The notes under the pieces are model-generated. The model saw only the letters and a program-made list of their open reading frames with translations, made no database searches and was not told where the DNA came from. Position numbers and translations under genes: made by a program. Shown here in pieces: positions 13,203 through 64,000 of a DNA stretch of 64,000 nt. The DNA lies in contig NZ_MJAT01000037.1 in assembly GCF_001742305.1 (NCBI RefSeq), positions 62,001 to 126,000 of the forward strand. Reading direction: 5' to 3'. The stretch comes from Desulfuribacillus stibiiarsenatis. Its GTDB lineage: Bacteria > Bacillota > Bacilli > Desulfuribacillales > Desulfuribacillaceae. Each line of letters opens with the position of its first letter. Positions within the stretch are counted from its first letter, which is position 1.

Positions 13203-13388
13203 ACAAAAGAGCCCTACAATGCAAGTGATACCGACGCGTTTTGATCCAACACTTCAATTTCGGGAGTTTGCGTCTATTCATGGATGGGTAGCCCCTTGAG
13301 GGATTCCAGAAGTGTTTAGCAGAACACCCACCTGCTGTAGGCAGGTTCAAAACCTAGGAGCACGGCAGAGCGGGGCTCTTTTTTTTTG
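13203..13388 (+). ncRNA. ssrS: 6S RNA (SsrS/BsrA type)
   Basis: A non-coding stretch between mrpG and tcdA whose ends pair: AAGAGCCC near 13206-13214 with GGGGCTCTT at 13372-13380, followed by a T-run that acts as terminator. Inside lie a long imperfect rod with a central unpaired region and several short helices (CCACCTGCTGTAGGCAGG). B. subtilis encodes 6S-1 RNA (bsrA) at exactly this position, between aspS and yrvM (tcdA). The RNA is expected to sequester SigA RNA polymerase in stationary phase. The identification rests on position, size (~185 nt) and the closed rod; I could not run a covariance model. Confidence 0.85.
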
Positions 13389-21529: not shown

Positions 21530-24157
21530 GTGAAGTCACTGAAAGCAAAAGAAGTTCGAAAGAGGTATCTCGAATTTTTTGCTTCTAAAGGTCATGAAAT
21601 TGTGCCAAGCGCACCACTAGTTCCAATTGATGATCCAACATTACTATGGATTAACTGTGGGATGGCACCATTAAAGAAATATTTTGATGGACGTGAAATA
21701 CCTGAAAATCCACGAATTGCAAATTCTCAAAAATCAATTCGTACAAATGATATAGAGAACGTTGGGCGTACTGCTAGGCACCATACGTTTTTTGAGATGC
21801 TTGGAAACTTTTCTATTGGCGATTATTTCAAAAGAGAATCGATTCATTGGGCATGGGAATTCCTAACCAAAGAAATGGAACTTGATATTGAACGATTATC
21901 AGTGACAATTCATCCTGAGGACGAAGAAGCATTTGACATTTGGCATCAGGAGTTAGGGGTTCCGAAGGAAAGAATTATCCGCCTAACAGACAATTTCTGG
22001 GATATTGGAGAGGGACCTTGCGGACCGAATTCAGAGATTTTCTTTGACCGCGGGGAAAGTTTTTCTTGCGGAGATCCAGAATGCAAAGCTGGATGTGACT
22101 GTGAACGATATTTAGAAATATGGAACCTCGTATTTAGCCAATATAATCATAATAAAGACGGCAGTTATACGCCACTACCGAAAAAGAACATTGATACTGG
22201 TATGGGTCTTGAGCGTATGGCTTCTGTATTACAGCAAGTAGATACGAACTATGAGACGGACTTATTACGTCCAATTATAGACCATGCGGCAATGCTAGCT
22301 AATAAACAATACAAAGTCCAAAGGGAATTCGATATTGCCTTTAATGTAATTGCTGACCATGCACGTACTGTTACATTTGCCGTTTCTGAGGGTGTATTAC
22401 CAAGTAATGAAGGTCGCGGTTATGTAATCCGTCGCTTATTACGTAGGGCAGTCCGTTTCGGTAAAGTGCTTGGATTCCAAGAGGCGTTTTTATATAAGTT
22501 AGCGCCAGTTGTGGCTGACATCATGGAAGATTATTATCCGGAAATAAAAACAAAGCTAGATTTTGTGCAGAAAGTAATTCGTACGGAAGAGGATCGTTTC
22601 CGCGAGACCTTAAATGATGGACTAGTGATTCTTCAGAACATGATCGACGACTTTAAAACAAAAGGCGTATCTGTAATCGGTGGACAAGATGCCTTTAAGC
22701 TATATGATACTTACGGTTTTCCAGTTGACTTAACAGAGGACCTAGCGGAAGAAAATGGCTTCACTGTTGATAAAGAAGGCTTCGAGACGTACATGCAGGA
22801 ACAACGGGAACGTGCTCGTAATGCTCGTCAAGACGAGAATAGCATGAATGTTCAAGGTGGAGATTTAGCAGAGTTTAAGGAAGCTAGTGAATTTGTTGGT
22901 TATAGTAATCTAAACACGGATAGCTCTGTGTTGGGCTTATTTATCAATCGTGAGAAAACAAATTTCGCTTCTGTAGATCAGGAATGTCAAATCATACTTG
23001 ATCGCACACCGTTCTATGCGGAGAGTGGTGGACAAGCAGCAGATGTTGGGTATATTAAAGGAAAAGACGGAGTAGGTAAAGTGGTTGACGTTCAAAAAGG
23101 CCCCAATGGACAGCATGTTCATAAGGTTTTCATTGAGCAGGGTACAATTCAATTGAATGAATCCGTTGTAGCAACAGTAGATGGTGAACACCGCAAGCAA
23201 ATTATTAAAAACCATACAGCAACTCACATATTGCATAAGGCACTAAAGGAAGTCCTTGGGGACCATGTAAATCAAGCGGGATCTCAAGTGTCTAGTGATC
23301 GTCTGCGTTTTGACTTCTCACATTTATCTGCTGTTACGCAAGAAGAACTGCGTCGCATTGAACGTATCGTTAATGAGCAAATTTGGGAAAGTACGCAAGT
23401 AAATTGCCAAATTACTGATATCGAAACTGCGAAACAGAAGGGTGCAACAGCACTATTTGGTGAAAAATATGGAAACGAAGTGAGAGTCGTTTCTGTAGGA
23501 GATTATAGCATGGAGTTATGTGGTGGATGCCATGTGGATAATACGGCAGAAATCGGACTATTTAAGATTGCGAGTGAGTATGGAATTGGCGCTGGTATCC
23601 GAAGAATTGAAGCCTTTACTAGTAAGAAAGCCTTTTCTTTCTTTGATGAAAAGTATACAATGATGGAAGATATTGCAAATCAATTAAAGACCAAAGTCGA
23701 TGATATGCCAAAACGCGTATCCCAAGTGTTAGATGAACTTAGAAGCGCGCAAAAGGAAAATGAGTCACTCAAAGGTAAACTCAGTCACTATGAAGCTAGT
23801 GGGCTAATTGACCAGATTCAGGATGTGAATGGAGTACCGATTTTAGCACAAGTTATTGAAAATGTAGATATGGATGAGCTTCGTATTGTAGTCGATGAGC
23901 TTAAGCAAAAGGTTACTTCCGGCGTCATTCTTCTTGGTAGTACGAAACAAGATAAGGTAAGCTTAGTTGCCTATGTGACGAAAGACTTTATCGCAAAAGG
24001 AGTTCATGCTGGAAACCTAATTAAGGAAATTGCTACGATCTGTGGTGGCGGTGGCGGTGGACGTCCAGATATGGCTCAGGCAGGTGGTAAGGACCCGTCG
24101 AAATTAAGTGCAGCAATTGAGAAAGTTTCTGAGGTTGTTTTAGGTCAGATTAAATAA
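21530..24157 (+). CDS. alaS: Alanyl-tRNA synthetase
   Basis: Class II AlaRS, 875 residues. The N-terminal aminoacylation core holds motif 1-2 sequences ([31 protein letters not shown]). The editing domain carries the zinc-binding [12 protein letters not shown] and CGGCHVD motifs, which hydrolyse Ser- and Gly-tRNA-Ala. The C-terminal DHHA1 domain includes [19 protein letters not shown] 21530 follows TGGAGGGG. It charges tRNA-Ala in the cytoplasm. In B. subtilis alaS is T-box controlled; here the 137-base upstream gap is too short for a full T-box. Confidence 0.97.
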
Positions 24158-24184: not shown

Positions 24185-24280
24185 ATACTATCAGAATTTA
24201 TATATTTTTAATGTAGATAGTATAAGCGCAACTCAGGCATTCTCTACGCCAGAGGCTTGACGAATGCCAAGTTTTGTTTA
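24185..24280 (+). repeat. Intergenic structured repeat, copy 1
   Basis: Two-stem element. Stem A is ATACTATC (24185-24192) with GATAGTAT (24216-24223). A conserved single strand AAGCGCAACTCA follows. Stem B is GGCATTC (24236-24242) with GAATGCC (24262-24268), then AAGTTTTGTTTA. It is followed directly by copy 2 in the same direction. Stem A differs in sequence from the other copies but keeps pairing. The 3' part can alternatively fold as CTTG...CAAG followed by a T-run. Confidence 0.8.
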
Positions 24281-24281
24281 C

Positions 24282-24375
24282 ATAGTCAGAATTTATAAAA
24301 ATTCTGACTATAAGTAATGGCAACTAAGGCATTCACCTTCGTCAGAAGGACTTGGTGTATGCCAAGTTTTGTTTA
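24282..24375 (+). repeat. Intergenic structured repeat, copy 2
   Basis: Stem A is a perfect 13-bp hairpin (24282-24294 with 24299-24311, loop ATAA). The linker is AAGTAATGGCAACTAA. Stem B is GGCATTCACC (24328-24337) with GGTGTATGCC (24354-24363). The alternative fold CTTGG...CCAAG (24351-24366) followed by TTTTGTTT would be terminator-like and excludes stem B. It lies 28 bases upstream of ireB. Confidence 0.85.
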
Positions 24376-24403
24376 TATCATACTGAAATAAGAGGTGAGG
24401 GTA

Positions 24404-24691
24404 ATGAGTTCCAACTTTGATAATTCATCCATGGATCATACAATGAAGTTTGATGTAAAGGTAGATGATAAAGAACTACAACCCCGCGAAGTGGTTTTGA
24501 CGGTTTATGAAGCATTGAAAGAAAAGGGATATCATCCAATTAACCAAATTGTAGGATATATTTTGTCTGGAGATCCAGCTTATATACCAAGACATAATAA
24601 CGCGCGGAACCTCATTCGAAAGATTGAACGGGATGATTTAATTGAGGAACTAGTTACCTCCTATCTTCAGCAGCACAAAAAGGATAAATAA
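24404..24691 (+). CDS. ireB: IreB-family regulatory phosphoprotein (DUF965, YrzL)
   Basis: A 95-residue small protein of the IreB/UPF0297 family. In Enterococcus, IreB is a substrate of the Ser/Thr kinase IreK and affects cephalosporin resistance. The conserved core [35 protein letters not shown] is complete, and Thr-rich N-terminal sequence is replaced here by Ser/Asp. ATG 24404 follows AGAGGTGAGGG; a GTG at 24395 is upstream but lies in the ribosome site. The neighbours ruvX and yrzB usually form an operon with it, but here an aldo/keto reductase gene intervenes. Confidence 0.92.
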
Positions 24692-26121: not shown

Positions 26122-26439
26122 ATGTCAAATTGTGAACATGATTATGAGCATGACCACGAGTGTGAAGAATCAACAGTAGTATTAACAGATGAAGATGGTA
26201 ACGAGCATGAATTTGAGTTGTTAACTATTCTTGAAGTAGATAACACGAATTATGCGGTTTTACTACCTTTAGAAATTCCTGAAGGTGAAGATGGAGAAGA
26301 TTTTGAAGAAGAAGCAATCATCTTAAGAATCAATCAAGATGAAGAAGGTAATGATGTATTACAAGAAATCGAAGATGATGCAGAATGGGATAAAGTAGCT
26401 GCAGAATACGATAAATTAGCAGAAGAAGACGAAGAATAA
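26122..26439 (+). CDS. yrzB: DUF1292 protein YrzB
   Basis: A 105-residue, strongly acidic small protein of the DUF1292 family, with the core LTDEDGNEHEFELLTILEVD and the ending EEWDKVAAEYDKL-like sequence. The N-terminus is His/Cys-rich (NCEHDYEHDHECEE), possibly metal-binding. Start ATG 26122 with GAGGTGAT upstream; a GTG at 26113 is in frame but is the ribosome site. Its 3' end is duplicated at 30.2 kb, and its stop is followed by a 12-bp tandem duplication (GAAGAATAATAC twice, 26431-26454). Function of the family is unknown. Confidence 0.92.
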   Translation: MSNCEHDYEHDHECEESTVVLTDEDGNEHEFELLTILEVDNTNYAVLLPLEIPEGEDGEDFEEEAIILRINQDEEGNDVLQEIEDDAEWDKVAAEYDKLAEEDEE

Positions 26440-26527
26440 TACGAAGAATAATACAATAAAGAAAAAGGCGCTTATACAGCGTCTTTTTTTTTCGTTTCTG
26501 TGAATGTATACCTTTTTTCTCTAATAA
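26361..26527 (+). repeat. Direct repeat, left copy: yrzB 3' end plus its terminator
   Basis: Bases 26361-26527 match 30167-30315 with roughly 85-90 percent identity by eye, apart from a 12-base duplication present only here. It covers the last ~25 codons of yrzB, the terminator and the following CTGTGAATGTATA...TTTTTTCTCTAATA. The pair flanks the accessory island. Confidence 0.85.
26463..26492 (+). terminator. Terminator after yrzB
   Basis: AAGGCGCT, loop TATA, CAGCGTCTT, followed by a T-run. Closes the ireB-AKR-ruvX-yrzB group. A near-identical copy lies at about 30254-30282. Confidence 0.85.
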
Positions 26528-54200: not shown

Positions 54201-54676
54201 AACTGGGAAGCGTACCATTTGTTGCAGAGGATTTAGGGTATTTATCTCCGCGCGTTCATGAATTAAAAGAGTATACTCAGCTCCCAGGTATGCAAATATT
54301 ACAATTTGAGATAGAACCCAATCTGTTAACTAAGTTTCATATCCCTTTGCATAACAAAAACACAGCAGTGTATACAGGGACTCATGATAACGATACAGTT
54401 TTGTCTTGGTATCAACGAAGTCATCCTATAGCTGCGGAGGACTCTACTCGAGAAGAAGATAAGAAGATTGCTTGGACGTTTATAGAAAAAGTGTATCAGA
54501 CCGATGCTAATATTGTGATTATTCCTTTACAAGATATTTTAGCGTTGGGTCCTGAAGGGCGAATGAACACACCGGGCACAACGACAGGTAACTGGAGCTG
54601 GAGATTTACTGAAGGACAAATCAACGCTAAAATTAAGCAAAAGCTCAAAGATCTAACAATTAAGTATGGTCGATAA
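51299..54676 (+). CDS. Fused debranching alpha-glucosidase/4-alpha-glucanotransferase
   Basis: A 1125-residue two-enzyme fusion. Residues 1-115 form an N-terminal CBM34-like beta-domain. GH13 neopullulanase-like barrel spans ~125-630, with D351 (GWRLDVADE), E380 (LIGEVWED) and D455 (VGTHDST). GH77 amylomaltase (MalQ) starts at ~640 (GILLHPTSLPSKHGIG), with D930 (IDHFRGFADFWE), E977 (VAEDLG) and D1030 (TGTHDND). The pair can cut alpha-1,6 branches and transfer alpha-1,4 chains, completing glycogen turnover next to GlgP. TTG 51299 with GGGTGGTG at 51286-51293; TTG 51281 is too early. Similar fusions occur in some clostridia. Confidence 0.92.
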   Translation: MNHRILHNSHLAEYRQPFGAVPCGMEITLQLDIEVASHVEYVGLHIHYDEGQTFEYPMSISPFNHDISRYRVTVVMPSQPQLGWYYFVIIENGYKYYYGNNHGRFGGVGDRYEDNPHAYQITIHDEAVETPQWFKESVMYQIFVDRFYNGNPNGLIDNPKKESLLHSHWENAPLYVRDPDTKRVVRWDFFGGNLLGVMKKLPYLQSLGIRVIYFNPIFEAASNHKYDTGDYHKIDPMFGDNDLFQELCIKAEQYGISIILDGVFSHTGSDSIYFNREGNYDSVGAYQSQKSPYYSWYKFSNYPDQYESWWGVDVLPNVEELDPYYQDFIIEQENSVLKQWIQLGAKGWRLDVADELPDSFIKKFWKTMKEFDKETILIGEVWEDASNKTSYGNRREYLLGQELDSVMNYPFRNAVIDFLMNRSDANKIHQQLMSLYENYPLHYFYSTMNLVGTHDSTRILTVLNDNIDKLKLAVIWQMTFPGVPCIYYGDETGVTGGEDPHNRKPFPWNDQNHELINWYKKIVAIRNHYDVFQTGSWQSIAPSNQVYGYIRTIENQQDVFGYKKLDNLAVVVMNSSDTQTVSVDIDTHQWMIEGFMYDLTDDVEFVVNEGRIRILLQPLQGRILIKNRWNRKESEKRRAGILLHPTSLPSKHGIGDLGEQAYAFVDFLAESGQNLWQMLPLHPVGYGESPYQSFSAFAGNPMLISLERLVEDGYLQAEDISDHPVFLDNIVDFEEVKQFKNKLLKKAFANFCESPSLTVLCPEFDLFCKEHQDWLDDYSLFMALKDHYNQIPWVDWDQNIAARESNAIDNYREKLQNRIQYEKFLQFLFFRQWNDLKNYANQKGVQIIGDLPIYIAHDSADVWVQQHLFKLDAQGHPTHVAGVPPDYFSETGQLWGNPIYQWDTLKAEGYQWWVKRIAALQKLVDRIRIDHFRGFADFWEIPAGEKTAINGQWVDGPGEEFFDKIYEQLGSVPFVAEDLGYLSPRVHELKEYTQLPGMQILQFEIEPNLLTKFHIPLHNKNTAVYTGTHDNDTVLSWYQRSHPIAAEDSTREEDKKIAWTFIEKVYQTDANIVIIPLQDILALGPEGRMNTPGTTTGNWSWRFTEGQINAKIKQKLKDLTIKYGR

Positions 54677-54678
54677 AG

Positions 54679-54717
54679 AAAACTTGGCATTCGCCAAGCA
54701 ACTGGTGAAGAGAATGG
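54679..54717 (-). repeat. Degenerate copy of the structured repeat, reverse orientation
   Basis: On the minus strand it matches the 3' half of copies 1 and 2: CTTGGCATTCgCCAAG, the reverse of their stem-B end, followed by CAACTGG... and GAATGGC. The stem-A half cannot be recognised. Lies between the convergent malQ fusion and nitrite reductase genes. Confidence 0.45.
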
Positions 54718-63892: not shown

Positions 63893-63934
63893 TTCTAGAA
63901 TAAAAGGCTGCTGCGGCAGCCTTTTATTCTAGAA
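63893..63934. terminator. Terminator after citrate synthase
   Basis: A perfect 19-bp hairpin (63893-63911 with 63916-63934, loop TGCG) with T-rich and A-rich flanks, so it could act in both directions. Confidence 0.9.
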
Positions 63935-64000
63935 TCAGCAGAAATTATAAAAATTCTGCTGATAAGTAACGGCAACTAAAGCATTCTCTTCGCAAAAAGA
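63934..64000 (+). repeat. Intergenic structured repeat, copy 3 (cut by window edge)
   Basis: Stem A is ATCAGCAGAA (63934-63943) with TTCTGCTGAT (63954-63963), then AAGTAACGGCAACTAA, then AGCATTC and TCTTCGCAAAAAGA at the edge. The linker is nearly identical to copy 2 while stem A differs with compensating changes. It starts directly after the citrate synthase terminator, so it would lie in the leader of the next gene. Confidence 0.75.

Follow-up and report, generated by a model that had tools for sequence, protein, structure and literature searches.

A two-hairpin repeat family found directly behind intrinsic terminators in Desulfuribacillus stibiiarsenatis and other Bacillota

Group IIC introns integrate just past the hairpin and T-tract that form an intrinsic terminator (PMC4424553), and repetitive extragenic palindromic sequences (REPs) bear, at one foot of their palindrome, a GTAG or CGTC tag (PMC3733652). 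Here, we describe an element that recalls both systems and, on present evidence, belongs to neither. It is 85–120 nucleotides (nt) long, contains no open reading frame (ORF) and lies as a head-to-tail pair between alaS and ireB of Desulfuribacillus stibiiarsenatis, within a stretch of 64,000 nt (contig NZ_MJAT01000037.1, positions 62,001 to 126,000; hereafter the window). Based on its position, structure and distribution, we regard it as very probably a non-autonomous mobile element of two hairpins that is joined directly 3′ of intrinsic terminators in one orientation.

Like group IIC introns, the element is found behind a terminator hairpin with its T-tract and in a fixed orientation, and group II introns occur in several of the same genomes. 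Unlike them, it measures only about 95 nt, which excludes group II intron domains from it; it lacks intron domains, an intron-encoded protein and any Rfam intron match, and it is most abundant in a relative without detectable reverse transcriptase (RT). With REPs, bacterial interspersed mosaic elements and the miniature derivatives of the insertion sequences (ISs) IS200/IS605 it shares a short, non-coding, hairpin-forming, extragenic and multicopy nature, the absence of target duplication and the existence of species-specific subfamilies. It differs from REPs and their REP-associated tyrosine transposases (RAYTs) in that no Y1 enzyme was found in several carriers and copies do not lie beside the Y1 genes examined, and in having a strict terminator-proximal target, a single orientation and two different hairpins per unit. 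A constant REP tag was likewise not found at the left ends, which vary by lineage (TACT, CAT, GTAG in some, GTCG, GCAG).

The element further resembles BOX and RUP of Streptococcus and bcr1 of Bacillus cereus, being dispersed, structured, intergenic, sometimes tandem and modular, with an extra middle hairpin in some copies; it is set apart from these three by their descriptions, as far as the accessible portions of those reports go, and not by sequence. Terminator-anchored insertion is not described for small Firmicutes repeats in the accessible part of that literature, which does not extend to the supplements of the stem-loop structure survey (Bant-1, Bhal-1). The element does not resemble a miniature inverted-repeat element of a DDE insertion sequence, as the best empty site shows no duplication and the two ends are different hairpins rather than inverted copies. 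ISs of the IS1272/IS1182 type, and IS110 in REPs, recognise hairpin-forming DNA as their target, which provides a lead only; our element lacks the type of terminal inverted repeat seen in these ISs, and no transposase of this type was found, although no search was aimed at one. In conclusion, a short mobile structured repeat is a known kind of element, and it is the targeting of terminators together with the missing mobilizer that sets this family apart.

Position and orientation of the copies

Comparison of the copies shows that the T-tract of an intrinsic terminator leads straight into the element, always in the same orientation. This rule, which the preceding sequence-only reading of the window had not seen, was quantified with automatic terminator calls, which overlook weak terminators. 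In D. stibiiarsenatis (G000; other G numbers denote compared genomes and L numbers extracted loci) a strict terminator is present directly upstream in 18 of 28 copies (64%), against 14 of 936 random same-strand positions (1.5%). The corresponding figures are 6 of 18 copies against a background of 25/601 in the relatives G001 to G055 and 38 of 81 copies against 105/2993 in the named genomes, while in genome G120 a strict terminator precedes 27 of 31 copies. Conversely, a terminator facing the 3′ end of the element was called for only one of 28 copies in G000 and for none of 81 in the named genomes. In G000, 33 of 40 copies point in the same direction as the gene upstream of them.

At loci L137, L152, L154 and L155 the terminator preceding the copy belongs, by our reading of the sequence, to a T-box leader; here, the copy lies between this terminator and the controlled gene and may add a second barrier to read-through. 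The copy at L232 is located behind the terminator of a tRNA operon. Because T-box leader and tRNA-operon terminators are used as well, the rule follows terminators and not gene ends.

The position of the join can be specified most closely in G120. Counted from the start of the T-tract, it lies at 8 nt in 19 of the 31 copies, at 7 nt in six and at 9 nt in three, with the target consensus T-tract-R^T (purine before the join in 26/31, T after the right end in 24/31). Intrinsic termination normally leaves the 3′ end of the RNA approximately 7–9 nt past the terminator hairpin. The G120 join would hence fall where the terminated RNA normally ends, about 8 nt behind the hairpin. The right end of the element itself, CCAAG-TTTTCTAA, repeats the geometry of the target terminator. 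Tandem units were found at L164, L144, L231, L246 and L045, and the register of the right end is kept in the arrays at L164, L231, L246 and L045. Since each insertion would rebuild the target, head-to-tail tandems such as the one at 24186-24375 are to be expected.

Structure of the element and its copies in the window

From left to right, the element consists of hairpin A with variable, covarying arms, the linker ATAAG-n-GC, hairpin B (AACTAAGGC..GCCAAGTT) and the end TTTTCTTTA or TTTTCTAA. Invariant or nearly so are AACTAAGGC, CTTGGnG, CCAAGTTTT and the GTATAA/TTTATA core of hairpin A. The sequence-only reading had pointed to the linker GCAACT and a GGC..GCC stem as conserved parts, and this holds, with AAGTAACGGC or AAGTGC as linker variants in G000 copies. 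It had also stated that stem A changes in sequence between copies and still pairs. Indeed, hairpin A has several alternative arm sequences among the subfamilies, yet its arms pair. Because MAFFT aligned stem A poorly (RNAalifold then gave the 3′ hairpin alone), covariation was measured by anchored arms and shuffles, a procedure that ignores the kinship among copies, so that the resulting figures are to be taken as support and not as probabilities. For 56 distinct copies, the mean longest helix of hairpin A is 5.6 pairs with the own arms compared to 3.7 with shuffled arms (maximum of 1000 shuffles, 4.36); an earlier test with arms at fixed offsets gave a weaker result (3.33 versus 2.74 pairs). 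Stem B covaries too, with 5.78 pairs for its inner part compared to 4.73 after shuffling (highest shuffle, 5.06). At the base of hairpin B, the linker base and the base after CCAAGTTTT are G and C in 117 copies and C and G in 18, so that the foot reads either TAAG-CTTTA or TAAC-GTTTA.

The 3′ half was moreover proposed to fold alternatively as a terminator-like hairpin, CTTGG..CCAAG followed by TTTTGTTT. This hairpin is present in copy 2, where a simple terminator scan calls it at 24347-24370, and it excludes hairpin B; about 0.9 such matches are, though, expected by chance in the stretch. Copy 1 has the same terminator-like motif at its 3′ end, with copy 2 following directly. Across the family the short hairpin (CTTGG..CCAAG with TTTTCT) is held by near-invariant sequence, and thus there is no covariation in its support; for the same reason, both folds are possible in nearly every copy. 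As judged from these pairings, the element is predicted to have two mutually exclusive folds.

Several copies depart from the basic layout. An extra conserved hairpin, GCTGTGCATTAGCAACACATCAGC..GCTGTGTTTATGCGTCAG, is located between A and B in about ten G000 copies (L015, L029, L033, L035-L038, L041, L042), and L035 and L036 carry a further hairpin inside hairpin B. L040 comprises hairpin A and part of the middle module, nothing more, while at L052 and L049 the loop of hairpin A is enlarged by an insert and the arms are retained. In G039, the hairpin B insert of locus L068 recurs at L072 in the reverse direction (AAAGCTTCCTCTAATGATGGACTAGAC), i.e. as an inversion between hairpin arms, which could be informative on the copying mechanism.

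In the window, a covariance model based on 42 copies of the family recovers three copies and one decayed half copy (Table 1). The tandem pair of roughly 95-base units between alaS and ireB is thereby confirmed, its end lying about 20–30 bases ahead of the ireB start. Other copies in the genome match copy 2 at 97, 96, 94 and 93% identity (BLAST), and its hairpin A is unlike that of copy 1 in sequence. The third copy, noted before at 63.9 kb, starts at 63.93 kb directly 3′ of the terminator AATAAAAGGCTGCTGCGGCAGCCTTTTATT (~63900-63929); cut by the window end, it is complete in contig G000:C36 (L013).

Table 1. Coordinates of the element copies, their hairpins and other features of the window; the first and last base of each element copy are uncertain by 1-2.
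Feature	Position	Strand	Evidence and details
Element copy 1, 95 nt	24186-24280	+	Covariance model R1, 82.3 bits, E 4.8e-15; sequence
Copy 1 hairpin A	24185-24223	+	Arms ATACTATC 24185-24192 / GATAGTAT 24216-24223; sequence, fold, family covariation
Copy 1 hairpin B	24230-24273	+	AACT 24230-24233 / AGTT 24270-24273; GGCATTC 24236-24242 / GAATGCC 24262-24268; sequence, fold, family covariation
Element copy 2, 95 nt, head-to-tail after copy 1	24281-24375	+	Covariance model R1, 74.9 bits, E 1.8e-13
Copy 2 hairpin A	24282-24311	+	ATAGTCAGAATT 24282-24293 / AATTCTGACTAT 24300-24311; sequence, fold
Copy 2 hairpin B	24322-24368	+	AACT/AGTT outer; GGCATTCACC 24328-24337 / GGTGTATGCC 24354-24363; sequence, fold
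Copy 2 terminator-like 3′ end	24347-24374	+	CTTGG 24351-24355 / CCAAG 24362-24366, then TTTTGTTT; alternative to hairpin B
Copy 3	63933-64000	+	Covariance model, 31.8 bits, 3′ missing
Remnant of another copy, right half, decayed (only the end with hairpin B)	54674-54716	-	Covariance model, 26.4 bits, E 0.004; sequence
alaS	21530-24157	+	
ireB ORF	24395-24691	+	
6S RNA	13208-13380	+	RF00013, 70.9 bits
Short in-frame tandem repeat	23752-23789		alaS frame
Short in-frame tandem repeat	26379-26454		yrzB-like frame

Dispersal and a recent burst

The copies of the window belong to a dispersed family in the genome and its relatives. In G000 it amounts to approximately 45 copies; a 98-base query yields 54 BLAST matches, and 42 pattern rows were obtained from the G000 loci, a few of them counted twice due to overlapping loci and all of them intergenic. 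Beyond this genome, a narrower DNA pattern gave no match in the contigs of the named genomes, while the shorter and more tolerant two-gap pattern AACTAAGG..CTTGGnG..CCAAGTTTT yielded at least 118 stretches there. The two-gap pattern matches 18 of 200 genomes of the class, and its reversed control matches none in any genome. Carriers among the matches listed include Oceanobacillus, Virgibacillus, Lentibacillus, Salirhabdus, Sporolactobacillus, Scopulibacillus, Cytobacillus, Pseudalkalibacillus, Aneurinibacillus, Brevibacillus, Desulfosporosinus, Candidatus Formimonas and Peptococcaceae, among others, and carriage is patchy inside families and genera. Judged by these matches, the element family is old and wide across the Bacillota.

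Viral contigs contain no exact match to the element and phage records no similarity; on plasmids we found a single weak half-length match, in Sporomusa termitida. The Rfam comparison returned no family for the element but chance matches only, both at the gathering cut-off and at the E-value threshold; the nearest, SQ1002, was rejected at 21.5 bits against a cut-off of 128, i.e. at chance level. Searched by topic, the open literature yielded no description of the element, subscription literature lying outside this scope, so that an earlier description is possible; the open papers that contain short core words of the element are chance primer matches on unrelated subjects.

The clearest sign of recent activity comes from G120, which has 45 exact matches to the two-gap pattern. 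Its whole-genome scan, in which 28 of 68 candidates were left unscored, gave 43 scored full-length matches at scattered sites, 30 of which show 100% identity over 104–107 of 107 bases, and thus a recent burst. G120 probably belongs to Brevibacillus, a genus that can be cultured, since its congener G204 (14 element copies) has the exact core of the B. centrosporus locus L120. Empty sites were found as well. Compared to L244 of G120, genomes G022, G207 and G202 possess a near-identical terminator without the element and without target duplication; compared to L074 of G051, the congener G062 retains the terminator and lacks the element; and compared to L079 of G051, the element is absent from G061, which has a terminator of different sequence at the same place. 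Presence and absence at orthologous terminators, along with identical dispersed copies, identify the family as a mobile element. The neighbouring genes belong mostly to housekeeping families, with no recurrent mobile gene among them in 1.56 Mb of flanking DNA.

How the element may move and what it means

Two points weigh against the assignment as a non-autonomous element joined behind terminators. Some copies have no strict upstream terminator, among them copy 1 of the window, which is preceded by a weak palindrome only, and no mobilizing gene was found beside the copies, nor in G120 by a search for the Y1 and RVT_1 families. An autonomous parent, i.e. a long version with separated ends, was not found in 1.56 Mb around the copies, and the G120 scan returned full-length copies alone among the scored candidates.

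Among the possible modes of movement, a DNA element that an HUH Y1 enzyme mobilises in folded single-stranded form, as for REPs with their RAYTs and IS200/IS605 miniatures, is conceivable, albeit doubtful. Hairpin A would then be the left end and hairpin B the right end, and the ATAAG guide would pair with the cleavage site CTTTA/CTAA and the target TTR. The two-hairpin layout, the lack of target duplication at the empty site and the conserved short target beside the left end are in line with this, and the covariation at the foot of hairpin B recalls the guide pairing of REP and IS200/605 derivatives. Moreover, Y1 genes are present in G051, G195, G191 and G094, the four inspected carriers whose assemblies comprise one or two contigs. 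However, Y1_Tnp (PF01797) was not found in G000, G001, G039, G055, G120 with the freshest burst, or G204 with its 14 copies, all of them drafts in which a short contig may be lost, and none of the Y1 genes examined elsewhere has a copy within ~2 kb; as mobilizer, a RAYT or IS200 enzyme was provisionally rejected on these two grounds. To our knowledge, IS200/605 elements do not target terminators either, which also speaks against this alternative. The sequence-only reading had left the choice between a regulatory RNA switch and a mobile REP-like element: mobility is borne out by dispersed copies, empty sites and the identical burst, while neither a REP of the RAYT kind nor a switch is supported.

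An RNA-mediated element akin to short interspersed nuclear elements (SINEs), the RNA of which would end at its own terminator and be joined by an RT to ends exposed at other terminators, appears unlikely. In its favour, both unit ends coincide with predicted RNA 3′ ends, and group IIC introns likewise insert behind terminators (PMC4424553, which cites Robart et al. 2007). An RVT_1 gene is present in all seven carriers first tested, and parts of group II RNA lie beside the RTs at seven of ten loci checked. On the other side, G120 with its 45 matches has no RVT_1 match, and congeners without the element are rich in RT matches (27 in G206, 29 in G209, 10 in G041), for which reasons a group II RT was discarded as mobilizer, though provisionally, as G120 is a draft. 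In addition, the element has no group II domain, and left-only as well as right-only copies occur, i.e. not 5′ truncations alone. Two RT ORFs were noted in G000: a group II-like one near a contig end with no recognisable intron RNA (L053, 374-1531) and an Abi-like one (L054, 2732-4300).

A functional regulatory RNA that owes its spread mainly to selection, be it an attenuator, a sensor of read-through or a backup terminator, is improbable; its alternative folds would control how far transcription continues into the following gene, here ireB. In its favour, both exclusive pairings are maintained (covariation keeps the long one, sequence invariance the short one), and in some cases a ribosome-binding site and start codon follow closely after the copy (ireB, L005, L037). 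On the other side, copies follow terminators of unrelated genes and also precede oppositely oriented genes, their presence varies between congeners, selection on a cis-regulator would not be expected to leave 30 identical copies, and neither a conserved downstream gene set nor a common gene class was found near them. The sequence-only reading had held that random placement and a flanking REP-type transposase would speak against regulation; the copies are not randomly placed, as they sit behind terminators in one orientation, and do not flank the Y1 genes examined. A regulatory role finds no positive support. For single copies, e.g. the pair before ireB, such a role is possible.

Returning to the non-autonomous mobile element, we propose that it would be copied to new places and joined 7–9 nt past a terminator hairpin in one fixed orientation, whereby its own right end, a terminator-like hairpin with 8–9 nt of T-rich sequence, would supply a new target at each insertion. 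A trans-acting enzyme would recognise the terminator as folded nucleic acid and use the hairpins of the element, and the conserved ATAAG foot may pair with the right end, perhaps also with the T-tract, as a guide. More tentatively, and with rather low confidence, movement might be coupled to termination itself: the unit would span from the RNA 3′ end of one terminator to that of its own, and would be joined via an RNA copy or by an enzyme class new to repeats. If this were true, the family would represent a bacterial SINE analogue that uses terminated transcripts as landing sites.

Taken together, these structured repeats form a family that spans the Bacillota and inserts by an unusually precise rule, namely a terminator hairpin plus about 8 nt in one orientation. 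G120 carries at least 30 copies identical over 104 bases or more, yet no Y1 transposase or RT was detected there by profile. Insertion behind terminators would allow multiplication without gene disruption; many transcripts would thereby acquire an additional hairpin at their 3′ end, and T-box leaders would be followed by one. Landing behind terminators is best read as a way to multiply harmlessly that also affects read-through and the 3′ ends of RNAs.
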